A DNA stretch of 64,000 nt from Acidobacteriota bacterium (GTDB taxonomy: Bacteria; Acidobacteriota; Vicinamibacteria; Vicinamibacterales; JAKQTR01): positions 124,001 through 188,000 of the forward strand of contig JAPKZQ010000004.1 of NCBI GenBank assembly GCA_026393675.1, in the 5' to 3' direction. This document shows positions 28,918 to 44,580 of the stretch, piece after piece. The translations under genes and the position numbers were made by a program. Numbering within the stretch: the first letter of the stretch is position 1; each line of letters begins with the position of its first letter. The notes beneath the pieces were generated by a model that was given only the letters and a program-made list of their open reading frames with translations, did not search any database and was not told where the DNA came from.

Positions 28918-29336
28918 GCCAATCCCCCCCCCAAAACGACCATCCCGGTGACCCGACGCGTCCCCTCGCGCGTCTGGACCGGGCCGCTGAGCAGGCCAAA
29001 CACTAGCCGCCGGGCTTTCGCCCGGCGGATCTCCGACTGACACCTCCGACCGCGCCGCCGGCGTGAATCCGAGGTAACTGGCAACCTCACCACGCCGGAG
29101 AAGCCGATGGCGTGGATGCTGGGCAGGGATCCACCAGTCCTCTTCTGAATCGGCAGGTTCGCGGAAGACTTCAGTCGGCGTCCCGTCCTTGGTTGTCAAA
29201 ATCTCGACACTTTCTGCGTGGTGAGCCACGTCATGGGCTAAATATCGACGACAGAACTACTAGATGTAGTGGGTACGAGTCTTGCGGAGCAGGTGCGTAG
29301 TCTGCGGGCGTGCGTGACGTCTATTCGGAGGATTTG
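28918..29336 (-). promoter_or_regulatory. Long leader upstream of the hybrid kinase: nested hairpins and a C9 tract
   Basis: This 419-base stretch has no firmly supported gene. On the minus strand toward the kinase it contains a 9-bp stem with a GAAA tetraloop (29007-29028), a GGCC/GGCC stem (28982-28997), and a nested pair: CCCGGT at 28944-28949 with ACCGGG at 28978-28983 enclosing GACGCG/CGCGTC (28955-28960, 28969-28974). Next comes a run of nine C on the plus strand (28924-28932), just before the kinase start. A weak sigma-28-like match (GTCGATAT, 29242-29249) lies further upstream. The same DNA is also an open frame continuous with the kinase from a GTG at 29229, so it could instead encode an N-terminal extension. 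The plus-strand part 29230-29336 holds the start region of the next gene. Confidence 0.4.
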
Positions 29337-30518
29337 ATGGCAACCTATGCGCTCACCGGCTCCTCAAGCTCTCTGAACCCGCTGGTGCGCCGGGAATACC
29401 TGGTGTGGCGTGAGCCCGACATGGCGGAGGCAGACTTGCTTGCGGAACCCGCGACGGGCGTTGTCCGATCATTCGGCTTGGAACAGCGGACGGAGACCTT
29501 CGAGCGGGCGTTTGAGCAGCGGGTGGGTGCGTCGTTCGCCATCACGATGGCTTCACGCGAGGCGGCGTTGCGCGTGGCTTTGAAAGCGCTGGGGCTGGGC
29601 GCCGGCGATGACGTCGTGGTTCCCGCCATCACGTCGATGACCACCGCGAACGCGGTGTTGCAGGTGGGCGCCAATCCCGTGCTGGCTGACGTTGATCCCG
29701 CTACACACCTCCTCACGGCTGATACGGTGGATCGCGCCCGGACGAAACAGACACGGGCCATCGTCGTCACCCACCTGTGCGGCCGCGCCGCCAATCTCCA
29801 GGCTCTCGAACCGTATGCGCATGACGCGGGTCTGGCACTGGTCAACGATGCCCGTCTCGGCGTTGAGATCCAGCACGGCGGTCAGAACATCGCGCAGTAT
29901 GGGGCGCTGTCGGTCTACGGCGCGGACCCGGCGCGGCGCGGAAGCACTCACGAGGGTGGCATCATCACCACCAACAATGCTGTGCTGGCTAAGCGTCTGG
30001 CGCAGTTGCGCCGGGGCCAGCAACCTGAACAGGCCAGTCACGACGGAAAGACGGGCCTGGGTTGCGAATTCCACATGACGGCGGCCCAGGCCTCGCTGGG
30101 CTTGCGATACCTTGATTGCACCGATCCGCTCAACAGACGCCGGCGGATGATCTGGAACCGGTACGACGAGGCGCTGGCCGGCCTGCCGCTTCTGCGACCC
30201 GCGCCTGTCACGCCGGGTGATCGGCACGCCCTGGGCATCTACACGGTGCTGGTCGGCACTGAGGCGATCGCCGGCGGCCGTGACGCGGTCGCCCTCGCGC
30301 TGCACAAGGCGCGCATTGGCACCGGCGTGCACTATCGCGGCGTGCACCTGCATCCCCACTATCGTGATGGTCTCGGCTACGCCCCCACGGACTTCCCGAC
30401 GGCCACGCGCATCTCCAACCAGACGCTCTCCCTCCCGCTGTCGGCGGCCATGAGGGACGGTGACGTCGAGGACGTCATCATCGCACTGACGGATATTCTG
30501 GAGTCGGGCCGGCGCTAG
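29337..30518 (+). CDS. DegT/DnrJ/EryC1 family protein lacking the PLP lysine
   Basis: The 393-residue protein has the fold-type I sugar aminotransferase pattern: FAITMASREAALRVALKALGLG, VVVPAITSMTTANAVL, and VNDARLG with D171 in the place of the pyridine-nitrogen Asp. In functional members a S-F-Y-A-T-K-N...GEGG motif carries the Schiff-base lysine, and the paralogue at 36192 has it at K195. Here the segment is SVYGADPARRGSTHEGG (about residues 192-208) with no lysine. It may therefore be non-catalytic or use another chemistry, as some sugar dehydratases of this family use His. The ATG at 29337 has GGAGGA at 29327-29332. It converges on the nonulosonate operon, so a role in sugar modification or its control is likely. 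Confidence 0.8.
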   Translation: MATYALTGSSSSLNPLVRREYLVWREPDMAEADLLAEPATGVVRSFGLEQRTETFERAFEQRVGASFAITMASREAALRVALKALGLGAGDDVVVPAITSMTTANAVLQVGANPVLADVDPATHLLTADTVDRARTKQTRAIVVTHLCGRAANLQALEPYAHDAGLALVNDARLGVEIQHGGQNIAQYGALSVYGADPARRGSTHEGGIITTNNAVLAKRLAQLRRGQQPEQASHDGKTGLGCEFHMTAAQASLGLRYLDCTDPLNRRRRMIWNRYDEALAGLPLLRPAPVTPGDRHALGIYTVLVGTEAIAGGRDAVALALHKARIGTGVHYRGVHLHPHYRDGLGYAPTDFPTATRISNQTLSLPLSAAMRDGDVEDVIIALTDILESGRR

Positions 30519-30570: not shown

Positions 30571-31728
30571 TTACGCCACCAGCAGGTTTGCCGCTTCCTT
30601 GGATGACCACGGCGCCATCAATGTGGCACCCCCGGCCGCGAGTCGCGCGTGATCGCTCGGTTCGTACTCCGGCACGGCCGCGCAGAGATTGGTCAACGCC
30701 GACAGGCCGTCTCCTCTCGACACGTCGGCGCGCAGCGCGCGCACCGTGCGATGGATGAGGTCGATGGCCACCGGTTTCTGATGGGCGATCCACACGCGGG
30801 CGTGCTTGGTCCTGGCCAGATCCATCCCGCGCAGCGTCAGCTGCTCGTCGAGTTTCTCGCCGGGCCGCAGGCCGATGAACGAAACCGGCACGGCGGGCAT
30901 GCCAGCCCTCTTCGCCATCCTGAGCAGGCGATTGACGATGTCGACGATGCGGACGGGATGTCCCATCTCAAGCCAGCACACTTCCCCGCCGAGCCTGAGC
31001 AGGTCGGCGCGCAACACGAGCGTCGCGGCCTCACCAACCGTCATGAAATATCGTGTCGCATCCGGATGCGTAATCGGGATGGGCCGCTGGTTGACCAGGC
31101 AATCGATCATCAACTCGAGGACGCTGCCGCTGCTGCCGAGCACGTTGCCGAATCGGACGACGACGGGCTCGAACTGCCCGTCCATCTGCGCCAGCGTGAC
31201 CATCTCGGCGAGGCGCTTGGTCGCGCCCATGACGCTGTGTGGGTTGACGGCCTTGTCGGAGGAGATCAGGACGAACCGCGCGCCGACGGCCTTGGCCGCC
31301 TGCACCACCGAGAGGGTCCCGAGGACGTTGGCCATGATGCCCGCGCAGATGTCGCGCTCGAGCATGGTGACGTGTTTGTAGGCGGCGGCGTGAAAGACGA
31401 CATCCGGGATGGTGGCGATGCACGCCGCGCGGATGACGCGCGGCCGCGTCACATCGCCGAGCACCGGGTCGAGATGCAGGTGCGGCCACCTGGATCGAAG
31501 CTCGCGCTCGATCTGGAACAGCAGGTACTCCGAGTGATCGACCAGCGTGAGGCTGTCGGGGTCGCAGGCGGCGATGCTGCGCGCTAGTTCGGACCCAACC
31601 GAACCACCGGCGCCGGTAATCAGCATGCGGTGACCCGCGTATCCAGCGCGCTCCGATTCGGTCAACGGTTCGCACGCCGACCGTCCAATCAGGGCTTCCT
31701 GCACGCGCGTGTCGCGGATGTCAATCAT
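30571..31728 (-). CDS. FlaA1/PseB/CapD-like UDP-sugar 4,6-dehydratase/epimerase
   Basis: The 385-residue short-chain dehydrogenase-type enzyme has a nucleotide-binding motif GAGGSVGS (residues 39-46), a DVVFHAAAYKHVTMLE stretch typical of the FlaA1/CapD group, the catalytic-type SSDKAVNP motif, and MGATKR where most SDR enzymes have YxxxK (a Met for Tyr change known in this group). It lacks the membrane domain of WbpM/PglF-type relatives, so it is soluble like PseB/FlaA1. It probably acts on UDP-GlcNAc to make a 4-keto-6-deoxy sugar for nonulosonate synthesis. It is the last gene of the operon, 42 bases after the SpsF-like gene. Inverting versus retaining stereochemistry cannot be told. Confidence 0.85.
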   Translation of the reverse strand: MIDIRDTRVQEALIGRSACEPLTESERAGYAGHRMLITGAGGSVGSELARSIAACDPDSLTLVDHSEYLLFQIERELRSRWPHLHLDPVLGDVTRPRVIRAACIATIPDVVFHAAAYKHVTMLERDICAGIMANVLGTLSVVQAAKAVGARFVLISSDKAVNPHSVMGATKRLAEMVTLAQMDGQFEPVVVRFGNVLGSSGSVLELMIDCLVNQRPIPITHPDATRYFMTVGEAATLVLRADLLRLGGEVCWLEMGHPVRIVDIVNRLLRMAKRAGMPAVPVSFIGLRPGEKLDEQLTLRGMDLARTKHARVWIAHQKPVAIDLIHRTVRALRADVSRGDGLSALTNLCAAVPEYEPSDHARLAAGGATLMAPWSSKEAANLLVA

Positions 31729-31770
31729 CGTCTCACCCCGTGGTCCTCGTGTCTGCAGTGACGTGCAGTG

Positions 31771-32466
31771 TCACGCCGCATTCCGCATCAGCACCCGATC
31801 CACCTCGGCGATGATGTCGACCAGCAGCGCCGGAGCCTCGACACGATCCACGCGCGCGAGGATGGTCTTCATGAACTCGATATCCGCGGGGGTATCGACC
31901 GTCAGCCGGATGTCTGGCCGTCGTATGTCAAGCGGCGCCAGCGGGGTGACGGTTCTGAAGGCGAACAGGTAGCGTTTGATGAACAACGTGACGTGCTCGC
32001 GATCCTGCGGATTGGTGGTCAGGTCCGCGACACGGTGCAGGGTGTCTCTCGCGATCACTTCGACGGCCGTTCCAAAGGGCAGCCCCTCCTCGATGCCGTA
32101 CTCGGCGTCTGCGCGCTCGACCTCGGTGATCAGCCGCGACGTGCTGCCGATGTCGACGGCGGGATTGTCGGCCGTGGCCCGCACGACGTAGCGGCAGTCC
32201 ATGGTGCGGGACGCCACGATGTACCGGGCCAGCACGTCGTCGGTCTCCCCACGAACGACGCCACACCCGTAGCGCCCGGCTTCGGCGACCACCGCATCGT
32301 CAATCGGCTCCCGGGTGGTTGCCACGAGCACGGGCCCGGCATCGGCGGCTACCAGCCGCCGGATGCAGTGTCCGAGCAGCGTGTGACGTCCGAGCGGGCG
32401 CAACACCTTGCCGGGAAGGCGGGCCGAGGCCATGCGCGCCTGGAGAACGATGAGTGCGTGGCTCAT
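31771..32466 (-). CDS. SpsF-like cytidylyltransferase
   Basis: The 231-residue nucleotidyltransferase begins with the signature VLQARMASARLPGKVL (residues 7-22), which binds the nucleotide. It has VRATADNPAVD and a late LTVDTPADIEFM motif of the COG1861/SpsF family. By analogy with Bacillus SpsF and PseF/NeuA it probably activates a nonulosonic acid with CTP, though some family members act in other sugar pathways. Its ATG overlaps the stop of the ATP-grasp gene as ATGA. No separate NeuA/PseF-type enzyme is seen in the operon, which supports this role. Confidence 0.75.
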   Translation of the reverse strand: MSHALIVLQARMASARLPGKVLRPLGRHTLLGHCIRRLVAADAGPVLVATTREPIDDAVVAEAGRYGCGVVRGETDDVLARYIVASRTMDCRYVVRATADNPAVDIGSTSRLITEVERADAEYGIEEGLPFGTAVEVIARDTLHRVADLTTNPQDREHVTLFIKRYLFAFRTVTPLAPLDIRRPDIRLTVDTPADIEFMKTILARVDRVEAPALLVDIIAEVDRVLMRNAA

Positions 32467-33476
32467 GCGGCGGCTGCCGTCTCCAGGTCGGCGGTTTTGG
32501 GAATCGGGAGCAACTGACTGATGTGATCGACAAACACCGACGCCTCGTAGCTGGTCATCCAGAGGTCGGACTTGAAGCAGCCGATTGACGGTTCCACGCG
32601 CCGGCCGAGCGCCAGTTGCAACAACATGCGCGGGAAGTCGGCACCGGCTGCGATGGTCAGCGGAATCCCTCCCGAGAAGCGGGGGTTGATCTCGAAGACC
32701 GTCGGCCGGCCGTTGACTGTGCGGCACTGAATGTTGATGGGACCGGCAAAGCTCAGCGCATCGGCGCAGGCCACCGCCAGGTCGATCAACTTCTGGTCGT
32801 TGACGGTGCGTCCGCGGTCGATCACGCCCGAGCGGATCACCACGCGCTGGCGCGGCACGATAGACAGGGGACGGCCGTTGAAGTCGCACATCAGGTCGAT
32901 GGTGTACTCGGGACCAGTGAGGTACTCCTGCACGACCGGATCGGCGACGTATCCGAGGAAGAAGTCGAGGTGTGGTTTGGTGCTCACTGACACGGCGCCG
33001 ATGCTGCCCCGGCCCCGCCTCGGCTTGATGAACATCGGCAAACGCGGCTGGTCGGGCATGGTGTGCGGCAGGAACGATTCGGCCGCCGCGATGCCGGCGT
33101 CGCGCAGATACGTGCACGTCGTGTACTTGTCGTTGCAGATGAGCGTGGTTTCCTCGGACGACACGGCCACCTTGATTCCCCTGCGGGCGAACCTCGCGGC
33201 CACTGACGCAAACAGCGGCAACTCCTCGTCGATCGTCGGCACGATCAGACCGATGCCTTCGGCCTCGCACAGTTCGGTGACGCTGTCGAGATAGCCCGGG
33301 TCGCTCGAGAGCGGCACCTGGTAGGCGCGGTCGCAGAAGTGCACGCCGGGCGAGAGCGGGTTGACGTCGGTGGCGATGACCGTTCCTCTGACACCGAGAG
33401 CGTTGAGCGCGTGGCGAAACGCCTTGACCAACGGCACACGGCGGGAGACCGCCGTCACGAGCACATTAAGCGGCAT
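32463..33476 (-). CDS. ATP-grasp ligase within the nonulosonate operon
   Basis: The 337-residue protein has an N-terminal Rossmann-like preATP-grasp domain and an ATP-grasp fold. Key motifs are NDKYTTCTYLRDAGI, the ATP-lysine region MFIKPRRGRGSIGA, VVQEYLTGPEYTID, and the metal-binding loop FEINPRFSGG. Similarity is to carbamoyl-phosphate-synthase-like/PylC-like ATP-grasp proteins that join a carboxylate to an amine. Placement between NeuB- and SpsF-like genes suggests it decorates the sugar or an intermediate with an amino acid or similar acid. That is inference: it is not part of the classic pse or leg pathway. AGGAG lies about seven bases before the ATG at 33476, which overlaps the neuB-like 3' end. 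Confidence 0.75.
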   Translation of the reverse strand: MPLNVLVTAVSRRVPLVKAFRHALNALGVRGTVIATDVNPLSPGVHFCDRAYQVPLSSDPGYLDSVTELCEAEGIGLIVPTIDEELPLFASVAARFARRGIKVAVSSEETTLICNDKYTTCTYLRDAGIAAAESFLPHTMPDQPRLPMFIKPRRGRGSIGAVSVSTKPHLDFFLGYVADPVVQEYLTGPEYTIDLMCDFNGRPLSIVPRQRVVIRSGVIDRGRTVNDQKLIDLAVACADALSFAGPINIQCRTVNGRPTVFEINPRFSGGIPLTIAAGADFPRMLLQLALGRRVEPSIGCFKSDLWMTSYEASVFVDHISQLLPIPKTADLETAAAA

Positions 33477-34527
33477 GACACACACTCCTGCTGGCGACCG
33501 ATTCGACGTCACGATCGAGGAAGGGCGTTTCCGCGGGCAGATCCCGCGTCATGATCCGCCCGACCAGGTCGCGACCGTAGCGTGGGTCGAGTCCCACGGC
33601 GGGCCGTAACGCGACAACGGCGTCTGCGGTCACGACGTCGCCGATATGCAAGTCCCTGGTGGCGTAGAGGCTGCGCCGGCTCCCTTCGCGGTTGGGACTT
33701 TCTGGGGCGAGACATTCCTTGCGCCCGTGGCCGAGCGCGCGACGTGCGGATTCGGCCGACTGAATGAGGTCCGCCAGCATCTCCGGCGTCGCCGACACGG
33801 CCGCGTCAATGGCTTCCTGGCCTTCGAGCATGAAGTGCTTCTCGTAGATCGACGCGCCCAGGGCGACGGCGAGCACGATCGCATTCGGATCGGTGCTGTG
33901 ATCGGACAGGCCAACCGGCACGTCAAAGGTGCGGGCGAGATCGGCTAACGCGCGGAGATTCTGGCTGTAGTCGGGAACCGGGTAGGACGAGACACAGTGG
34001 AGCAACGCGATGTCCCGGCCGCCGGCGGAATGGAGCGTGCCCATCGCCGCGGCGATCTCGCGGGTACTGCTCATCCCGGTGGACACGACGACCGGCTTGC
34101 CGGTGCGCGCCACCCGTTCGAGCAGGCCCGTGTTGGTGATGTCGCCGCTCGCGATCTTGTAGGCCTCGCAGCCCACGCGCTCGAGCATGTCGACAACGTC
34201 TTCGTCGAAGGGCGTCGACATGAAGGTGAGGCCGCGCCGCTTCGCATCGCTGGCAATCCGGTGGTGCGCGTCTTCGTCGAGCTCGAAAGCGCGGAAGAAA
34301 TCGCGGAGCGATGCGGTCGACACGTGAACCGGCGCTGGGCAACCCGAGGCGACCAAGCGGTCGGCGCGCAGCGTTTGTAACTTGACGGCCGACGCGCCAG
34401 CGGCCGCCGCGCCGGCCACCATCTCGCGAGCCACGTCAACCGAGCCGCCATGGTTCAACCCAATCTCTGCGATCACGAACATCGGTTTGCCGGATCCGAC
34501 CCGGCGGCCACCAATCTCACGCAGCAT
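33466..34527 (-). CDS. NeuB/SpsE-like nonulosonic acid synthase
   Basis: The 353-residue protein has the NeuB barrel (EIGLNHGG, AVKLQT, MSTPFD, KIASGDI, STGM, LLHCVSSYP, GLSDHS, YEKHF) and a C-terminal antifreeze-like SAF domain (about residues 285-345, RRSLYATRDLHIGD...). It condenses phosphoenolpyruvate with a six-carbon N-acyl sugar to give a nine-carbon sialic acid-like product. The substrate (sialic, legionaminic, pseudaminic or another) cannot be read directly. Neighbouring PseG-like and aminotransferase genes favour a diamino sugar. It overlaps the HAD gene upstream and the ATP-grasp gene downstream by 11 bases each. Confidence 0.88.
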   Translation of the reverse strand: MLREIGGRRVGSGKPMFVIAEIGLNHGGSVDVAREMVAGAAAAGASAVKLQTLRADRLVASGCPAPVHVSTASLRDFFRAFELDEDAHHRIASDAKRRGLTFMSTPFDEDVVDMLERVGCEAYKIASGDITNTGLLERVARTGKPVVVSTGMSSTREIAAAMGTLHSAGGRDIALLHCVSSYPVPDYSQNLRALADLARTFDVPVGLSDHSTDPNAIVLAVALGASIYEKHFMLEGQEAIDAAVSATPEMLADLIQSAESARRALGHGRKECLAPESPNREGSRRSLYATRDLHIGDVVTADAVVALRPAVGLDPRYGRDLVGRIMTRDLPAETPFLDRDVESVASRSVCHAA

Positions 34528-35212
34528 TCGCCACCTCCGTAGAGAGCAGATCCGCCGCCGTTCTGATGACTTCGTCTAGCCCGAGGATGACTGCGTCGGG
34601 CGCACATGCCGCGAGGTGTTCGCGCCTGGCATGCCGGCACAGCAGGATCGCCCTCAGGCCAGCCTGTTGTGCGCCAAACACGTCGCATCGCGGGTCGTCG
34701 CCCACAAACACGCTGTGCGGCGCACGCGCGCCGACTTTCGCCAGCGCGACCTCGAATACCGCACGCTCGGGTTTGCCTGTGCCTGTTCCCCACTCACTGG
34801 CGTAGACGATGGCATCCACCAGGCGTCCCAGCCCGAGCGCGGCTGCCTTGCGGGCCTGCACGGCAGGGAATCCGTTGGTGACCACTCCCAACCGCCAACC
34901 AGCGTCGCGTGCCGCCTGCAGCGTCGCCAGTGTCTTTTCAGGCAGCCGAAGAGACGGCACGTGCGCACGAATCGTGTCGACCAGATCTGGCACGATGCCG
35001 CCGGGAAGCAGGTGGCGCGCGCAGAGTTCCTGCAGCGCGCGATTGCGGTTCCCGCGCCGAAGCGCGCCGACCAGCGTCGCAAGTGCGTCGCGGCGTGGTA
35101 CGCCGAAACGCCGTTCGACCTCGGCGGCGACCGCGCTGAAGCCGCTGCGAACGAACTGACGCTCGGCATACAACGTGTCGTCGAGGTCGAACAGGAGCGC
35201 CTTGGTCACCAC
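34517..35212 (-). CDS. HAD-superfamily phosphatase in the nonulosonate operon
   Basis: The 231-residue protein has a complete HAD catalytic set: LLFDLDDTLY (nucleophile D9 and acid D11), VVTNG, a Lys in GTGKPERAVF and FVGDDPRCDVFGA. A helical C1 cap lies between. In a NeuB-containing operon it may dephosphorylate a nonulosonate 9-phosphate, as animal NANP does, or an intermediate hexose phosphate. The classic pse pathway has no such step, so this hints at a variant route. It overlaps the genes on both sides (7 and 11 bases), which suggests tight co-translation. Confidence 0.78.
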   Translation of the reverse strand: MVTKALLFDLDDTLYAERQFVRSGFSAVAAEVERRFGVPRRDALATLVGALRRGNRNRALQELCARHLLPGGIVPDLVDTIRAHVPSLRLPEKTLATLQAARDAGWRLGVVTNGFPAVQARKAAALGLGRLVDAIVYASEWGTGTGKPERAVFEVALAKVGARAPHSVFVGDDPRCDVFGAQQAGLRAILLCRHARREHLAACAPDAVILGLDEVIRTAADLLSTEVANAA

Positions 35213-36189
35213 AGCCTCCCGGCACCAGATCCAGTGCTGCTGTTCGCCAAACGAGTCAGGGCGTCCGCCACCCGCATGGCTCCCTGGCCGTCAATCAATG
35301 CACGCCCAGCTTGACTGATGCGATGGCACAAGGTCGGGTGGTCGATGAGTCGCGTCACTTCACGCATGGCCATTGTGATGTGGCGAGCCGATCCGCCGTC
35401 GCGCGCCGCCCCGTGGCGGGCGAGCCCGCGCACCGTCGGCCGCTGAGCGACGACCACCGCCAGTGCCACTACGGGAGTGCCCATGCGGCATGCCTCGTAC
35501 AGCGTGACGCCGCCGCCGACGATGGCCACCGCCGCGCGTGAGAGTTCGTGCGACAGGCCACGCTGCGGGCCGAGCCATGTGACGCCATCCATCTGCGGGG
35601 CGACACCTGCCGGCGCCAGGCCGGCCGCGATGCGCACGCGCATGCCCGGCCTGGCACGCCGGATCGCGCGGGCGAGCTTCCAGGCCACGGCTCGGCGGCG
35701 GCCGCCGAGCGAGATCAACACGTTGTTGGAGCGTACCGGCTGGTGAGATGCGCCGGCCGCCAAGATGGCGTAGCGCGGACCGAGCAAAGCGGGCCCAGAG
35801 GGCGTCCCGCCAGGGTGCACGATGCTGCCGTCGATCGCCAGATCGGCGCCGCAGTCGGCGAGACCCAGATCGTGAATCGACGCGACGCGGACACCCACGC
35901 GTTGCACGGCGCGGCAGAACCTGGTCGCCGCCACCCCCGACGGGTCGTCAATCACGACGAGGCCGGGTTGCAGCGATTGCAACAACGTCGCGACCGACCC
36001 GTTCACGAGCCGACATCCCAGGCGACGCGCCGTCGCCCGGGCCTCCGTCTGTCCCCGAAGCGACACGATCGGACGCACGCCGAGCGCCTTACCGACCACC
36101 GTCGCCCTGATCAAGTGGCCGTAGCCTATCCGCGGCCCGGCGGCCACTCTGAACAGGATCCGCACGGTGGGTCGACTGCGAGCGGGCAT
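35206..36189 (-). CDS. PseG/SpsG-like UDP-sugar hydrolase
   Basis: The 327-residue protein has a two-domain GT-B-like layout as in PseG. The N-terminal domain starts RILFRVAAGPRIGYGHLIRA (residues 9-28), with the G-x-GH-x2-R motif that carries the proposed catalytic His. The C-terminal domain contains VGGGVTLYEACRMGTP, typical for UDP binding. PseG removes UDP from UDP-2,4-diacetamido-2,4,6-trideoxyhexose before the NeuB-type condensation. A glycosyltransferase role is an alternative, but the operon supports PseG/SpsG. The stop overlaps the HAD gene start by seven bases. Confidence 0.75.
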   Translation of the reverse strand: MPARSRPTVRILFRVAAGPRIGYGHLIRATVVGKALGVRPIVSLRGQTEARATARRLGCRLVNGSVATLLQSLQPGLVVIDDPSGVAATRFCRAVQRVGVRVASIHDLGLADCGADLAIDGSIVHPGGTPSGPALLGPRYAILAAGASHQPVRSNNVLISLGGRRRAVAWKLARAIRRARPGMRVRIAAGLAPAGVAPQMDGVTWLGPQRGLSHELSRAAVAIVGGGVTLYEACRMGTPVVALAVVVAQRPTVRGLARHGAARDGGSARHITMAMREVTRLIDHPTLCHRISQAGRALIDGQGAMRVADALTRLANSSTGSGAGRLW

Positions 36190-36191
36190 CC

Positions 36192-37385
36192 CTATCGCCC
36201 GCCCATCCGCAGCGCGCCGCGCACCTGCTCGACGACGTAGTGCCCCTCGTCTTCGGTCATGGCGGGAGAAAGAGGCAGTGACAGTGTCTGGTCCGAGACG
36301 AGCTCGGCATGCGGGAACTGGCCGCGCTTGAGCCCGAAGCGATCCGCGTAGAAGGTATGCAGGTGCAGCGCCCTGAAGTGCAGGCTGGTTGCGACGCCGC
36401 GTGCGGTCAGTGCGGCCGACAGCGCGGCGCGGTCGAGTCCGCAGCGGTCGCGGTCGACGAGAATCGTGTAGAGGTGACGGGCGTGCCGCGATCCGAATTC
36501 AACCGGCGCCGGCCGTTCGATCGGCAGATCGGCGAGGCCCTCGTCGTAGCATTCCCAGATGGCTTCGCGACGCCGCAGGTTATCTTCGATCCGCGCCAAC
36601 TGATGCAGCCCGATGGCCGCCTGCAGGTCCATCATGTTGTACTTGAAGCCGGGCATCACCACGTCGTAGTCGACCGCGCCGCCGCCCGAGTAGCGGGTCC
36701 ACGCATCGCGGCTCATCCCGTGCAGCGCGGCAATCCGAATCCGGCCGGCGGCCTCCGCCGACGCGGTCGTGAGCATGCCGCCTTCACCCGTCGTCAGGTT
36801 CTTGGTCGCGTAGAAACTGAAGCACGTGTAGTCGGCGGTCGTGCCAATCCGTTTGCCTCTGGCGATGCCCTCGACGCAGTGCGCCGCATCTTCGATGAGG
36901 GTGAGCCCGGCGTGGTCCGCCATCTCGCGAAACGCGCGCACATTCACCGGCCGGCCGGCGAAGTGCACGGGCAGCAGCGCACGCGTCCGAGGCGAGATCG
37001 CCGCCGCGGCCGCGGCCGGATCGAGATTCATCGTGCGCGGATCGATGTCGGCGAACACCGGCGTGGCGCCGACGTGCACGATCGTGTTGGCCGTCGCGCA
37101 GAAGGTCAGCGGCGTGGTGACGACCTCGTCGCCGGGTCCGATGCCAGCCGCCAGCAGCGAGAGGTGCAGCGCGGCGGTGCAGGAGTTGACGGCGACGGCA
37201 TGCGGGGCGCCGACGTAGGCGGCAAACTGCTGCTCGAACTGCTTCACCCGGGGCCCGGTCGTCAACCAGCCCGATTCGAGCGTCGCGCGGACTTCGCGCA
37301 TCTCGGCTTCGCCGATGGCCGGCCGCGAGAACATCACCCGGGTGGTCGACGGGTGGGTGGGTGCCCCGATACCTAGCGCCGCCAT
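36192..37385 (-). CDS. PseC/SpsC-like UDP-4-keto-sugar aminotransferase
   Basis: The 397-residue DegT/DnrJ/EryC1 aminotransferase has all key residues: VNSCTAALHLSLLAAGI (phosphate-binding region), LIEDAAH (D166, pyridine N) and FSFYATKNLTTGEGG with Schiff-base lysine K195. It probably transfers an amino group from glutamate to the 4-keto carbon of the dehydratase product, the second step of pseudaminic/legionaminic-type synthesis. The ATG at 37385 fits the family N-terminus. An open frame continues up to 37514, but the sequence there looks better in another frame, where a small gene overlaps. It is the first large gene of the operon. Confidence 0.87.
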   Translation of the reverse strand: MAALGIGAPTHPSTTRVMFSRPAIGEAEMREVRATLESGWLTTGPRVKQFEQQFAAYVGAPHAVAVNSCTAALHLSLLAAGIGPGDEVVTTPLTFCATANTIVHVGATPVFADIDPRTMNLDPAAAAAAISPRTRALLPVHFAGRPVNVRAFREMADHAGLTLIEDAAHCVEGIARGKRIGTTADYTCFSFYATKNLTTGEGGMLTTASAEAAGRIRIAALHGMSRDAWTRYSGGGAVDYDVVMPGFKYNMMDLQAAIGLHQLARIEDNLRRREAIWECYDEGLADLPIERPAPVEFGSRHARHLYTILVDRDRCGLDRAALSAALTARGVATSLHFRALHLHTFYADRFGLKRGQFPHAELVSDQTLSLPLSPAMTEDEGHYVVEQVRGALRMGGR

Positions 37386-37504
37386 TGGTCGCCCCCGGTT
37401 TCTCGGTTGCCGCCAGGCTTCAGGTCGGTCCAGACGATATTCGGCAACGGCTGGCCGTCGACATGGACGGGCTTTCTTCGGGGCTTGATTTGTGAAGTTC
37501 TCAT
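37373..37504 (-). CDS. Possible small protein (43 aa) overlapping the aminotransferase start
   Basis: A 43-residue frame runs from the ATG at 37504 to a TAG at 37375-37373. It includes VHVDGQPLPNIVWTDLKPGG and ends DQWRR. Composition is protein-like and basic at the N-terminus, unlike the alternative frame, which is Arg/Pro-rich. Its stop lies 12 bases inside the aminotransferase gene, so it could couple translation of the operon. A weak GGTGG lies upstream. No family was recognised. The rest of the gap 37505-37664 shows no other gene and may hold the operon promoter. Confidence 0.35.
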   Translation of the reverse strand: MRTSQIKPRRKPVHVDGQPLPNIVWTDLKPGGNRETGGDQWRR

Positions 37505-37664
37505 GCCTTGCCACCGTTTCGGGCCATGTCGAACCTCCGACATAGCCGACCGACAGTACGTCCGTCTCCCGCGCTCATCCCCCCGGTGTCTGGCCGTTTT
37601 CCAGAAGAATTCTGCCGGGCCAGGCGCGCTGACGACTACTTTTGCAAGGGAGATACCAGCAGTT

Positions 37665-38267
37665 CTACGCCGTGGCCACTCGCATCAGGACGTCGCGCCA
37701 ATGCGTGAGGAGGGGTTCCAGGTCGTATTCGAGGATGTCGGCCAGTTGGACCCAGTCCCCGGACTGCTGGGCCTCGATGAGTTCCTTGGTATGTCCGTCG
37801 AGTTCGGCTGACAAATCGGCGATGGAGAGCCCCTGCTGGCCGAGCGCCCCAAAGTCGTCCGTGAGCGGGACACTGGCGGCGGCGATCACCTGAAATACGG
37901 TCAACAGGTTCTGTGTGACCAGTTGGAGTCCCTGAACAGCGGGCGACACGTCGGCACGCCTGAATCCGTCGGCCACCAGTTTCGCGGCTTGCGCTAGCTC
38001 GGACAGGGCCATCGCCGCGTCGGCCAGCGACTGCCTGGCCAGAAGACTCGGCTCTCCCGTATCGACCTCAATCCTCGAGAACGATGCCAGCGACCGGGCG
38101 CACACGTCCTCAGCCCTGAAGGCCGGTTCGTCGACACCATCCAACCGGACCGATGTCAGGATCTGATGGGTCGTGCAGAGATCAACGTCGAAGCCTTCGA
38201 CCAAGTCGCCCCACGTTTCCCAGCCACTTCGGGCGGGAGTCTCCGTACCATTCACGAGTAGTGTCAC
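37665..38267 (-). CDS. Conserved-looking hypothetical protein next to the flagellins
   Basis: The 200-residue protein is not recognised. It is soluble, acidic and mainly helical: an N-terminal mixed region (about residues 1-75, with LVNGTETPARSGWETWGDLV and ILTSVRLDGVDEP) and a C-terminal helical half (about 80-195) with LADAAMALSELAQAAKLVADGF. The GTG start at 38267 has GGAGG eight bases upstream, so expression is credible. It diverges from fliC1, sharing a gap of 172 bases, and lies upstream of the nonulosonate operon on the same strand. A role in flagellin secretion, glycosylation or regulation is possible from position only. Confidence 0.6.
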   Translation of the reverse strand: MTLLVNGTETPARSGWETWGDLVEGFDVDLCTTHQILTSVRLDGVDEPAFRAEDVCARSLASFSRIEVDTGEPSLLARQSLADAAMALSELAQAAKLVADGFRRADVSPAVQGLQLVTQNLLTVFQVIAAASVPLTDDFGALGQQGLSIADLSAELDGHTKELIEAQQSGDWVQLADILEYDLEPLLTHWRDVLMRVATA

Positions 38268-38360: not shown

Positions 38361-38401
38361 CCACTTCGGCACGTAGAGATGGCTATTCTGGCCGTCTGCC
38401 A

Positions 38402-38433
38402 TGGGCACGGACGCCCACCACTTTCAGGGAGGA
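38402..38433 (+). promoter_or_regulatory. Candidate CsrA-binding leader of fliC1
   Basis: TGGGC (38402-38406) and GCCCA (38413-38417) form a stem whose six-base loop is ACGGAC, an A-N-GGA motif as preferred by CsrA. A second GGA pair lies in CAGGGAGGA (38425-38433), which is also the Shine-Dalgarno. The GGAs are about 19 bases apart, suitable for one CsrA dimer. The fliC2 leader has the same arrangement. csrA and fliW are in this window. Confidence 0.6.
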
Positions 38434-38439
38434 ATGGCA

Positions 38440-39246
38440 ATGGCATCGTTCTCAGTCGTCAACAACATCACCGCGGCCTACGCACAGACCAACCTGCAGG
38501 CCACACAGCTGGGCTTGCAGAAGGCTCTGAGCCGCCTGTCGAGCGGCTTCCGCATCAACCAGTCGGGTGATGACGCAGCCGGCCTCGCCGTGGCGAACGG
38601 CTACCGCAACAGCTCCGCGATCCTGAGCCAGGGCATCCGGAACGCCAACGATGGCATGTCCGACCTGCAGATCAAGGACGGCGCGCTCGGTAACATCTCG
38701 AACCTGCTCGATCGGCTCGCCACGCTGGCGACCCAGGCCTCGTCCGGCAAGGCGGGCCTCAGCCTGACCAACCTGAACTCGGAGTTCGGCAAGGTCACCG
38801 CCGAGATCACCCGTGAAGCCAAGGTGGCGGGTCTCGACACGTCAACCAATTTCTCGGTGTTCGTGAGTAACACGACCTCGGCGGCCGATGGCATGGTGGC
38901 CGGCACGGTTGGCGCGGTGACGCTGGCCTCGCTCGGCATCAATACCTCGGCCATCGACACCCAGGCCAACGCGATCAGCGCAGTCGCCGATGTGGCGGCG
39001 GCGGTGGGAACGCTGGGCGGGGTCCAGAGCTCGGTCGGGTCGCTCCAGAACAACCTGCAGTTCGCGATCAGCCTGGCGCAGTCCAAGCAGGTGAACACGC
39101 AGGCCGCCGAGAGCCGGATCCGTGACGCCAACGTGGCGGAGGAAGCGGCCAATATGACCCGGTTCAGCATCCTGTCGCAGAGCGGCATCGCAGCCCTCGC
39201 CCAGGCCAACCAGTCGACCTCGTCGGTCCTGGCGCTCCTGCGGTAA
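38440..39246 (+). CDS. fliC: Flagellin FliC, copy 1
   Basis: The 268-residue flagellin is the filament subunit. N-terminal D0/D1 helices (SVVNNITAAYAQTNLQ, LSSGFRINQSGDDAAGLAVA) and C-terminal D1/D0 helices (SRIRDANVAEEAANMTRFSI, LAQANQSTSSVLALLR) are well conserved. Only about 60 residues separate them, so the outer D2/D3 domains are missing. The ATG at 38440 is preferred over the ATG six bases earlier, because AGGGAGGA (38426-38433) is then correctly spaced and copy 2 has ACG at the earlier site. Thr/Ser-rich central residues could carry O-linked sugar from the adjacent nonulosonate pathway. It is followed by its own terminator. Confidence 0.96.
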   Translation: MASFSVVNNITAAYAQTNLQATQLGLQKALSRLSSGFRINQSGDDAAGLAVANGYRNSSAILSQGIRNANDGMSDLQIKDGALGNISNLLDRLATLATQASSGKAGLSLTNLNSEFGKVTAEITREAKVAGLDTSTNFSVFVSNTTSAADGMVAGTVGAVTLASLGINTSAIDTQANAISAVADVAAAVGTLGGVQSSVGSLQNNLQFAISLAQSKQVNTQAAESRIRDANVAEEAANMTRFSILSQSGIAALAQANQSTSSVLALLR

Positions 39247-39398: not shown

Positions 39399-39439
39399 CC
39401 TCTTCGGCACAGAGAGATGGCCACTCCGGCCGTCTGCCA

Positions 39440-39470
39440 GGGCAAGGACGCCCACCACTTTCAGGGAGGA
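39440..39470 (+). promoter_or_regulatory. Candidate CsrA-binding leader of fliC2
   Basis: GGGC (39440-39443) and GCCC (39450-39453) enclose the loop AAGGAC, again A-N-GGA. The Shine-Dalgarno CAGGGAGGA (39462-39470) supplies the second GGA about 19 bases downstream. Differences from fliC1 are one loop base and the loss of one closing pair. Confidence 0.6.
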
Positions 39471-39476
39471 ACGGCA

Positions 39477-40283
39477 ATGGCATCGTTCTCAGTCGTCAAC
39501 AACATCACAGCGGCCTACGCACAGACCAACCTGCAGGCCACACAGCTCGGCTTGCAGAAGGCGCTGAGCCGCCTGTCGAGCGGCTTCCGCATCAACCAGT
39601 CGGGTGATGACGCGGCCGGCCTCGCCGTGGCGAACGGCTACCGCAACAGCTCCGCGATCCTGAGCCAAGGCATCCGGAACGCCAACGATGGCATGTCCGA
39701 CCTGCAAATCAAGGACGGCGCGCTCGGTAACATCTCGAACTTGCTCGATCGGCTTGCCACGCTGGCGACCCAGGCCTCGTCCGGCAAGGCGGGCCTCAGC
39801 CTGGCCAACCTGAACTCGGAGTTCGACAAGGTCACGGCCGAGATCACCCGCGAAGCCAAAGTGGCGGGCCTCGACACCCAGAGCAGCTTCTCGGTGTTCG
39901 TGAGCAACTCGACCTCGGCATCCGATGGCATGGTGGCCGGCACGGTCGCCGCGGTGGACCTGACCTCGCTCGGCATCAACGCCTCGGCCGTCGACACCCA
40001 GGCCCACGCCATCGACGCAGTGTCCAAAGTGGCGGCGGCGGTGGCGACGCTTGGCGGGGTCCAGAGCTCGGTCGGGTCGCTCCAGAACAACCTGCAGTTC
40101 GCGATCAGCCTGGCGCAGTCCAAGCAGGTGAACACCCAGGCCGCCGAGAGCCGGATCCGTGACGCCAACGTGGCGGAGGAAGCGGCCAACATGACCCGGT
40201 TCAGTATCCTGTCGCAGAGCGGCATCGCGGCCCTCGCCCAGGCGAACCAGTCGACCTCGTCGGTCCTGGCGCTGTTGCGGTAA
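39477..40283 (+). CDS. fliC: Flagellin FliC, copy 2
   Basis: The 268-residue flagellin is nearly identical to copy 1 in the N-terminal 130 and C-terminal 60 residues. It differs mainly in the short surface region (residues about 140-195), for example DTQSSFSVFVSNSTSASDGMV versus the DTSTNFSVFVSNTTSAADGMV of copy 1. It arose by tandem duplication of a unit including promoter and leader. The ATG at 39477 is the only ATG correctly spaced from AGGGAGGA. Both proteins should be exported by the flagellar type III system with FliS as chaperone. Different surface residues may give filaments of mixed composition. Confidence 0.96.
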   Translation: MASFSVVNNITAAYAQTNLQATQLGLQKALSRLSSGFRINQSGDDAAGLAVANGYRNSSAILSQGIRNANDGMSDLQIKDGALGNISNLLDRLATLATQASSGKAGLSLANLNSEFDKVTAEITREAKVAGLDTQSSFSVFVSNSTSASDGMVAGTVAAVDLTSLGINASAVDTQAHAIDAVSKVAAAVATLGGVQSSVGSLQNNLQFAISLAQSKQVNTQAAESRIRDANVAEEAANMTRFSILSQSGIAALAQANQSTSSVLALLR

Positions 40284-43355: not shown

Positions 43356-44324
43356 TCACACGGCGAGACGACGTCCTGCTGACGGTCCATAGTTGATCCG
43401 GACCAGACCAGCTCTCCGCGCGGAGGCAAAGGCAGAGCACTCGACGAATCCCTGCCTGGCATAGAGCGTCCTGGCCGGTGCGTTCCCTTCGTCGACCATC
43501 AGCGTGATCGAGGAGTACCCGGCCTGCCCAGCCGCGGCGAATGCCTGGCTGAGCAACGTGCGGCCGACACCCTGGCGCGCGTTCTGGGGCCCGACCACCA
43601 CTTGCGCGATGTGCGCCGTGCCGGGAGAGAGCGCAGTGGTCAGCACCGCTCCCAGCAACCGGCCACTCGACGGGTCATCAGCGACAAACGAGGCCTCGGG
43701 CAGAAACCGGCCGCACGACTGCCGTTCGATGAGTTGCCTCAGGTACCGCACCCACTCGTCAAGACGACCATGCGGCGCAAAACACACGGCGCCAGGCGCA
43801 CCGTCGTAGGCGCTGGCGAGCAAACGTACGGCTCCGAGCATGTCCGCGCTGCGGTACGGCCGCATACGCAGGCCAGCCGCCCCTGGACGTCGGTCGAAGG
43901 TATCTGCGCCCAGTGGAAGCGTGAGGTAGAGCGAGCGGCGCACCGAGAATCTGCGCCGGCGCAGCGCGCTCAGCAATGATGCCGGCGCGGGGTAGACAAA
44001 GCAGCTGATGGATGATGCCAGGCTGGCTTCAGGCGATCCGAGTACGCCGTCGAGCAATTCGCGCACGTCGATCGCGCGGTCGGCGGAGAGCGCGCCGATC
44101 TGGAGCTCTCCTTCGAACAGCACGTAGTAGGTCCACCCGCGGACCTCGCCCGTCTGGTCGCGCAGAATCCAGCCCAGCACATCGCCCCGCTGCCGGCCAG
44201 CTTCGACAATCGCCCATGACGTGCATGTATCCCACGCGAGTTCACGCTGCCATCGCCGCTGCTCGTCTTCGTACAGACCCGCGACCAGCGTGCTGTTTGC
44301 GTCGCGCCAGTCATCGAGCGTCAT
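43356..44324 (-). CDS. Two-domain GNAT acetyltransferase
   Basis: The 322-residue protein has a C-terminal GNAT domain with the acetyl-CoA loop VVVGPQNARQGVGRTLLSQA (motif A, Q/R-x2-G-x-G/A) and LMVDEGNAPARTLYARQGF (motif B). The N-terminal half is a second, degenerate GNAT-like domain. It lies 10 bases after csrA in the same operon as fliW and flgL. Possible roles are acetylation of a flagellar protein or the missing N-acetyltransferase step of nonulosonate synthesis (PseH/SpsD role). Both are guesses from location. The ATG at 44324 is chosen because the frame upstream overlaps csrA. Confidence 0.75.
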   Translation of the reverse strand: MTLDDWRDANSTLVAGLYEDEQRRWQRELAWDTCTSWAIVEAGRQRGDVLGWILRDQTGEVRGWTYYVLFEGELQIGALSADRAIDVRELLDGVLGSPEASLASSISCFVYPAPASLLSALRRRRFSVRRSLYLTLPLGADTFDRRPGAAGLRMRPYRSADMLGAVRLLASAYDGAPGAVCFAPHGRLDEWVRYLRQLIERQSCGRFLPEASFVADDPSSGRLLGAVLTTALSPGTAHIAQVVVGPQNARQGVGRTLLSQAFAAAGQAGYSSITLMVDEGNAPARTLYARQGFVECSAFASARRAGLVRINYGPSAGRRLAV

Positions 44325-44334
44325 GCGGGGCGCC

Positions 44335-44580
44335 TTATCCCTCTGCCGTCGCCGCCCGCTGGCGGAGATGGCTCGCAAGCGCGCCTGCCGGCGCTTGGCT
44401 GTGCGAGGCCTCGAGGTTTTCTGCGCGAATCAGGTCGTAGATCTCCGCTCGATTGACCGGGACGTGTGGCGGCGCGGTGATGCCGATGCGGACGCCATCG
44501 CGGCCGATTCTCAGCACCCGGACTTCGATGCCCTCGCCGATGATGATCGCTTCGTTGCGTTTGCGTGTGACGACGAGCAC
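44335..44580 (-). CDS. csrA: CsrA, translational regulator
   Basis: The 81-residue protein has the full CsrA fold sequence MLVVTRKRNEAIIIGEGIEV with L4/R7-type RNA contacts, then DGVRIGITAPPHVPVNRAEIYD (contact R residue in VNRAEI). A roughly 20-residue C-terminal extension follows. It binds GGA motifs in mRNA leaders and in many flagellated bacteria represses flagellin translation. It is encoded right after fliW, its protein antagonist (four-base gap). Both flagellin leaders in this window carry candidate sites. It starts with GTG. Confidence 0.95.
   Translation of the reverse strand: MLVVTRKRNEAIIIGEGIEVRVLRIGRDGVRIGITAPPHVPVNRAEIYDLIRAENLEASHSQAPAGALASHLRQRAATAEG

Follow-up and report, generated by a model that had tools for sequence, protein, structure and literature searches.

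Closest described systems

Two published loci stand close to the operon considered here, which occupies 37514 to 30571 on the minus strand of a 64,000-nucleotide stretch (the window; contig JAPKZQ010000004.1, positions 124,001 to 188,000, assembly GCA_026393675.1) of an Acidobacteriota bacterium of the Vicinamibacterales, adjoins two flagellin genes and combines genes of nonulosonate biosynthesis with those of an ATP-grasp ligase and a HAD phosphatase. The Clostridium acetobutylicum locus CA_C2186-CA_C2199, published in 2014, contains spsE and spsF together with genes for an ATP-grasp amino-acyl ligase, a MAF-type glycosyltransferase and a HAD-phosphatase fusion (PMC4000134, Table 2). It has spsE, ATP-grasp, spsF and a HAD domain in common with the window, the ATP-grasp proteins being likened by description, and differs in that its HAD domain forms one protein with an acetyltransferase, next to which an acyl carrier protein is encoded, and in that acetyltransferases, a peptidase-like DUF4910 protein and several glycosyltransferases are present. 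In Shewanella oneidensis, the single flagellin-modification operon sfmABCDE unites NeuB (sfmA) with an ATP-grasp protein (sfmE); the flagellin carries a mono-N-acetyl nonulosonate together with a group of 236-264 Da, and loss of sfmE alters this modification less than loss of the other sfm genes (PMC3765264). Different from the window, the Shewanella ligase is of the ATP-grasp_4 type with 412 amino acids, a thiamine pyrophosphate enzyme, a reductase and a methyltransferase accompany it, and there is no HAD gene. An earlier note on this DNA had stated that the known pathways contain no ATP-grasp enzyme, which, given these two loci with ATP-grasp by NeuB, was too strong.

On the side of the product, an ATP-grasp gene is required for the peptidylamido sugar of Clostridium difficile type B flagellin (PMC5207246), and Clostridium botulinum carries the flagellar sugar Leg5GluNMe7Ac, which shows that a flagellin nonulosonate can bear an amide-linked amino acid; its gene set differs from that of the window, and within the literature examined its acyl group is not tied to an ATP-grasp enzyme (PMC13317340). 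Flagellar sugars with amide decoration are thus already known, as are loci for flagellar nonulosonates that include ATP-grasp genes, while the new part is a clade-wide operon with a HAD partner and without an acetyltransferase. In the literature searched, acylation of a nonulosonate precursor by an ATP-grasp enzyme was not found to be proven biochemically, and the searches returned nothing on flagellin glycosylation in Acidobacteria, ATP-grasp enzymes with nonulosonic acids or carbamoyl phosphate synthase-like flagellin genes.

A conserved operon with an ATP-grasp ligase and a HAD phosphatase

The operon would produce a cytidine monophosphate (CMP)-activated 9-deoxy diamino nonulosonic acid for the flagellar filament, N-acylated most likely by the ATP-grasp enzyme with the HAD protein as its partner, a proposal to which we give an equal chance of being right or wrong. 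It comprises seven closely spaced genes, the first six of which overlap by 4-11 bases or sit 2 bases apart and look, by this spacing, like one transcription unit, while the dehydratase gene follows after a gap of 42 bases:

36192-37514, minus strand: DegT-family pyridoxal phosphate (PLP) aminotransferase, here AT1 (Pfam PF01041, 424 bits; start codon tentative)
35206-36189, minus strand: PseG/SpsG-like nucleotide-sugar hydrolase (TIGR03590, 46 bits, under the cut-off of 153.6; no Pfam match)
34517-35212, minus strand: HAD subclass IA phosphatase (PF00702)
33466-34527, minus strand: NeuB-family nonulosonate synthase with SAF domain (PF03102, 241 bits; PF08666)
32463-33476, minus strand: ATP-grasp ligase of the PRK12767 'carbamoyl phosphate synthase-like' group (PF21360 and PF15632)
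31771-32466, minus strand: SpsF-like CMP-sugar (cytidylyl) transferase (PF02348, 82 bits; start set at 32466)
30571-31728, minus strand: soluble PglF/WbpM-type uridine diphosphate (UDP)-N-acetylglucosamine (UDP-GlcNAc) 4,6-dehydratase, Polysacc_synt_2 (PF02719, 276 bits)

All seven gene families which the earlier note had placed between 30571 and 37504 were confirmed at their positions by profile searches, and its view of a nonulosonate operon with ATP-grasp and HAD genes, tied to flagella, is borne out by gene content and conservation. The window is part of a host genome of 3.25 Mb that is 98.6% complete.

At the thresholds used, a NeuB homologue was found in 46 and an ATP-grasp homologue in 11 of 149 genomes spread over the Acidobacteriota, and the two genes are directly adjacent in 8. 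A wider search found 41 closely related ATP-grasp loci (L068-L108), most of them from Acidobacteriota and some from Nitrospinota/Nitrospirota; a few are on the same contigs as loci of the phylum sample. The comparison of gene neighbourhoods, which the earlier note had suggested as a check, showed NeuB directly upstream of ATP-grasp in 20 of the 24 loci with enough flank, with PseG and SpsF in all 20, HAD in 16, the aminotransferase in 15, the dehydratase in 13 and a flagellin within 10 kb in 16, all of these counts being minima from tblastn with the window proteins. The usual gene order within the taxonomic order of the window is flagellin, a gene for a conserved protein of 200 amino acids, aminotransferase, PseG, HAD, NeuB, ATP-grasp, SpsF, motAB and dehydratase, from which the window differs in that motAB does not stand between SpsF and the dehydratase. 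Such an order, recurring in dozens of genomes, is well past chance assembly.

Type of pathway

Dehydratases of the PglF/WbpM type are, unlike PseB, retaining enzymes and lead to bacillosamine-like and legionaminic-type sugars. The protein at 30571-31728, 'FlaA1/PseB-like' in the earlier note, supplies the 4,6-dehydratase of a diamino nonulosonate pathway, but it is not a strict PseB, as it is nearer PglF/WlaL (5bjw, 221 bits versus 90 bits for PseB, 2gn4) and carries, in its motifs SSDKA...MGATK, a Met at the position of the catalytic Tyr of PseB. AT1 has ArnB as closest solved structure (1mdo, 319 bits versus 148 bits for PseC, 2fn6); its PLP lysine is kept in the aligned ATKN motif, as expected of a working aminotransferase, and the enzyme is predicted from its sequence to place the amino group at C4, with a UDP-4-keto-6-deoxy sugar as substrate. 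The NeuB protein matches TIGR03569 (292 bits) and the PseI model TIGR03586 (278 bits) about equally, both under cut-off. Hydrolase, synthase and cytidylyltransferase are all present in the operon, the hydrolase by a weak match; the place of its gene between AT1 and NeuB is kept in relatives.

The PseI, PseC and PseG models all stayed under cut-off for the window proteins, and an inverting PseB with its catalytic Tyr was not found in the operon. From these matches the type of pathway is clear, the exact stereochemistry less so, and the product is more likely of legionaminic (retaining-dehydratase) than of pseudaminic type. As in the legionaminic pathway (LegC, LegH, LegG, LegI, LegF) and among the Bacillus sps genes for UDP-linked sugars, a retaining-type dehydratase, a DegT aminotransferase, a PseG/SpsG-like hydrolase, a NeuB-family synthase and an SpsF-like cytidylyltransferase occur together; in contrast to both, the operon has no LegH/PseH/SpsD acetyltransferase, with the ATP-grasp and HAD genes instead, and the aminotransferase is nearer ArnB than the LegC or PseC models.

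Proposed route and the ATP-grasp ligase

Within the operon, genes are present for all steps of such a pathway apart from N-acylation, and these genes are contiguous in relatives. In the classic pathways, N-acylation is carried out by a GNAT or a left-handed-helix acetyltransferase. We infer the substrates and the order of the steps as follows. UDP-GlcNAc would be converted by the dehydratase (30571-31728) to a 4-keto-6-deoxy sugar, from which the aminotransferase (36192-37514) would form the 4-amine; the ATP-grasp ligase would then most likely N-acylate this amine through an ATP-driven amide bond with an amino acid, a hydroxy acid or another acid, in the manner in which PurD adds glycine to an amino sugar. 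After N-acylation, UDP would be released by the PseG-like hydrolase (35206-36189), followed by presumed condensation with phosphoenolpyruvate by NeuB (33466-34527) and activation to the CMP sugar by the cytidylyltransferase (31771-32466). The HAD protein would act as partner of the ligase by stripping a phosphate either from the acid before ligation or from the product after it.

The ATP-grasp protein consists of a PylC-like N-terminal domain and an ATPgrasp_Ter domain, and its best NCBIfam match is PRK12767. An alignment of 30 ATP-grasp relatives shows no variation at the ATP-binding lysines K117 and K151 or in the E-x-N metal site (E262, N264). The structural model (predicted local distance difference test, pLDDT, 93.7) has the ATP-grasp fold and its best match is 2pn1 (Z 36.5), a structure without assigned function, followed at Z 25-27 by biotin carboxylases, PurK, PurD, PylC and dipeptide ligases. 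On this model the protein looks like an active carboxylate-amine ligase, and because it combines the fold with the conserved ATP/Mg residues of that group, acylation of an amine is the most natural reading of its role. That it acylates the amine of the sugar is the leading reading, to which we give about even odds. Chemically, the closest precedent for the proposed reaction is PurD, an enzyme that couples glycine to phosphoribosylamine. A transfer of carbamoyl or carboxyl groups, by which the sugar would receive a carbamoyl-type group and not an amide-linked acid, is suggested by the 'carbamoyl phosphate synthase-like' names of both the best NCBIfam family and the best structure and by biotin carboxylases as next fold neighbours; these names, however, are based only on homology with a portion of the large subunit, the operon has neither a second ATP-grasp half nor a glutaminase partner, and the match to PurD, PylC and amino-acid ligases is almost as good, so that we regard this transfer as quite improbable.

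If the proposed acylation is true, an ATP-driven acylation route would be added to nonulosonate biosynthesis, which would offer an explanation of how amino-acid or hydroxy-acid amides reach bacterial surface sugars and give a function to a large family that so far has no name beyond 'carbamoyl phosphate synthase-like'. A predicted flagellar glycan pathway would then also be available for the flagellated Vicinamibacterales and related Acidobacteriota, which are mostly known from metagenomes.

The HAD phosphatase as proposed partner of the ligase

The HAD protein has its motifs I-IV, including both aspartates of motif I, with the catalytic residues D9, D11, T112, K147, D172 and D177 intact in an alignment of 27 members, as characteristic of subclass IA; its model (pLDDT 95) has PH0459, NANP and YfnB among its fold neighbours. 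In about ten loci that lack NeuB, the ATP-grasp gene of the same group is immediately followed by the same HAD gene: in the acidobacterial genomes G132 and G097 (two loci), in the sphingomonad L111 and on plasmids of Ensifer canadensis, Ensifer adhaerens, Rhizobium gallicum, Palleronia, Roseibium and Ruegeria, the plasmid HADs with profile scores of 171-211 bits versus about 30 for other HADs. The pairs of the alphaproteobacterial polysaccharide clusters (Ensifer, Rhizobium, Palleronia, Roseibium, Ruegeria) have ATP-grasp proteins of 32-37% identity to that of the window, directly followed by a member of the same HAD subfamily, and several of them share with the window a PglF-type dehydratase or a DegT aminotransferase, but they differ from it by the lack of NeuB and, in several cases, by a formyltransferase gene upstream. 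The Palleronia cluster adds all three of PglF-type dehydratase, DegT aminotransferase and formyltransferase, and on a Rickettsiales plasmid gmd and an arnB-like aminotransferase gene are followed, farther on, by ATP-grasp and a short HAD-type gene that fails the profile.

Since pairs without NeuB recur, ATP-grasp and HAD look like a module which moves between amino-sugar clusters and which may have been recruited to the nonulosonate pathway. It is as if a phosphatase step were part of this module, because phosphatase-type genes of other folds flank related ATP-grasp genes: among distant relatives (L210, L214), a PHP-domain gene directly precedes ATP-grasp on Sinorhizobium pSymB, and a gene for a low-molecular-weight phosphatase stands two genes after it in Streptomyces. 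The wider proposition, that ATP-grasp and phosphatase form a portable two-enzyme module for the acylation of 4-amino sugars which replaces the acetyltransferase clade-wide and gives filaments with an undescribed amide-linked acid, possibly an amino acid, is tentative and on balance doubtful.

The earlier note had assigned the HAD protein to a 9-phosphate. Removal of the 9-phosphate from a nonulosonate, a step of the NANS/NANP and KdnABC routes, would fit human NANP among the fold neighbours and the HAD gene directly before neuB; that fold match is generic, however, with dehalogenases and nucleotidases scoring alike, and there is no kinase in the operon. As dehydratase and 4-aminotransferase imply a 6-deoxy sugar with a methyl group at C9, on which no 9-phosphate is possible, and as the HAD gene recurs behind ATP-grasp where NeuB is missing, this role is very unlikely. 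An FkbH-like (glyceryl-acyl carrier protein) HAD was ruled out, the protein being of subclass IA with a helical cap and unfused to a carrier protein or transferase. Of the two guesses of the earlier note, that on the ligase is worth testing and that on the 9-phosphatase is not.

The formyltransferase gene (L207, L208, L212) lies a short way upstream of the pair in Ensifer and Palleronia; in Ruegeria it is nearby. The combination of ligase and formyltransferase recalls PurD and PurN.

Acetyltransferases outside the operon

Several observations weigh against acylation of the 4-amine by ATP-grasp and HAD as a dedicated pair. HAD is absent from 4 of the 20 NeuB-ATP-grasp loci. Nitrospinota loci also contain this ATP-grasp subfamily, there accompanied by SpsF, a Gfo/Idh/MocA oxidoreductase and a glycosyltransferase, while no NeuB, PseG or aminotransferase was seen; the job of the subfamily is therefore not specific to nonulosonates. 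The choice of a substrate from the ATP-grasp fold neighbours failed, as these lie within about 2 Z units of each other. Finally, a GNAT gene is close by and syntenic with the operon in 13 of the 20 loci:

43356-44378, minus strand: two-domain GNAT acetyltransferase in the flagellar cluster, outside the operon (PF00583)

The absence of an N-acetyltransferase, which the earlier note had reported, holds for the operon, where no PseH, LegH or PglD-type enzyme was found; this GNAT, which is no clear stand-in for PseH, is encoded 6 kb off. A PseH/SpsD homologue elsewhere in the genome, named in the earlier note as the finding that would complete a standard pathway, was not detected above cut-off and the acylation idea stands: the best host matches reached 20.8 bits for PseH (TIGR03585, cut-off 93.1) and 47.4 bits for NeuD (TIGR03570, cut-off 160.8), a divergent enzyme being possible in both cases. 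Two left-handed-helix proteins were examined, one WlbB-like in a cluster with Gfo/Idh, glycosyltransferase and aminotransferase genes and one GlmU-like beside glmS; the best match to the NeuD model is, by context, the WlbB-type gene. A PseH-like GNAT was found near NeuB in none of the 8 linked NeuB-ATP-grasp loci, and some NeuB loci without ATP-grasp carry one (G023, G134, G028), so that an exclusion between the two points in the expected direction in a sample too small to weigh. Because the flagellin islands of Geobacillus likewise lack PseH (PMC5109656), its absence is not unique to operons of the window type.

A GNAT encoded elsewhere, for example that at 43356-44378, might acetylate the 4-amine in the ordinary way, and ATP-grasp and HAD might decorate the other amine, a hydroxyl or the carboxyl group of a sugar that is standard in all else. 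Besides the synteny, the GNAT gene was found within the order only in the four operon-bearing genomes, Shewanella sfmE is a gene of late decoration whose loss gives a smaller mass shift than other losses (PMC3765264), and in the C. acetobutylicum locus aminosugar acetyltransferases occur alongside the ATP-grasp ligase (PMC4000134). Relatives of the GNAT were found, however, in 34 of the 149 genomes, of which 21 are flagellated and 11 of these without a NeuB homologue at the threshold used, and also in families resembling Acidobacteriaceae in non-flagellar surroundings; the gene would accordingly follow flagella or general metabolism and not the sugar of the operon, and its resemblance to PseH or LegH is limited to the GNAT fold. 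Acetylation by such a GNAT is a serious competitor that we nevertheless consider improbable, and for the window GNAT itself, which was set aside as the missing PseH since its relatives occur without NeuB, sequence comparison leaves a role as acetyl-adding enzyme for this sugar possible but not likely.

In three loci of one acidobacterial family (L179, L180, L182) a HAD gene is directly followed by a two-domain GNAT related to that of the window. This neighbourhood, from four genomes of one family, was at first taken to point to an acylation partner, a reading that was dropped since the loci show no sugar genes.

Link to flagella and presumed transfer to flagellin

The operon adjoins flagellin genes, after which fliD follows, and between them and the operon lies the gene of the conserved 200-amino-acid protein:

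38401-39246 and 39417-40283, plus strand: two near-identical flagellins of 281 and 288 amino acids (Flagellin_N at G000:C4:162461 and 163498)
37665-38267, minus strand: conserved 200-amino-acid protein in the flagellin-to-operon interval (no Pfam match)

Flagellin was found in 36 of the 149 genomes of the phylum sample and in 7 of the 8 in which NeuB and ATP-grasp are linked (hypergeometric 2e-4); in the taxonomic order of the window the ATP-grasp gene is present in 4/4 flagellated and 0/8 other genomes, counts which take related, non-independent genomes and overstate the strength of the association. The two flagellins are the presumed acceptors of the sugar. We can only infer the transfer to flagellin, the final step in the host genome, because neither a Maf protein (PF01973) nor a close homologue of the tetratricopeptide repeat (TPR)-glycosyltransferase was found in it at 98.6% completeness, which also tells against a flagellar destination. 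In relatives, a Maf-type protein (PF01973, 104 bits) is encoded after the operon region (G014) and a TPR-glycosyltransferase beside the operon (L070).

The nonulosonate might instead be destined for a surface polysaccharide, in agreement with the lack of both transferases in the host and with the location of ATP-grasp/HAD pairs in exopolysaccharide clusters elsewhere. The operon lies, however, beside flagellins or motAB in most relatives, within the order only in flagellated genomes, and is adjoined by Maf or TPR-glycosyltransferase genes in those relatives mentioned above; a destination in polysaccharide therefore appears unlikely.

Neighbouring genes and other loci

The gene of the 200-amino-acid protein (37665-38267) stays close to the operon in 15 of 20 related loci, and its product could serve as chaperone of flagellin or assist glycosylation. 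Divergent from the operon, a second DegT aminotransferase gene (29310-30518, plus strand) encodes a protein without the Schiff-base lysine (PARRGSTHEGG versus ATKNLTTGEGG in AT1), which is, because of this loss, probably no aminotransferase. Another locus of the host genome (L205, G000:C3:178000-196000), unlinked to the flagellar operon, encodes CMP-sugar synthetase-like and Gfo/Idh/MocA proteins with a weak NeuB-family match (23 bits). In the Nitrospinota/Nitrospirota loci L094, L097, L098 and L101, a family-2 glycosyltransferase gene is followed by ATP-grasp, a Gfo/Idh/MocA oxidoreductase and an SpsF-like gene without NeuB; on its predicted gene content, this is a different CMP-sugar cluster.

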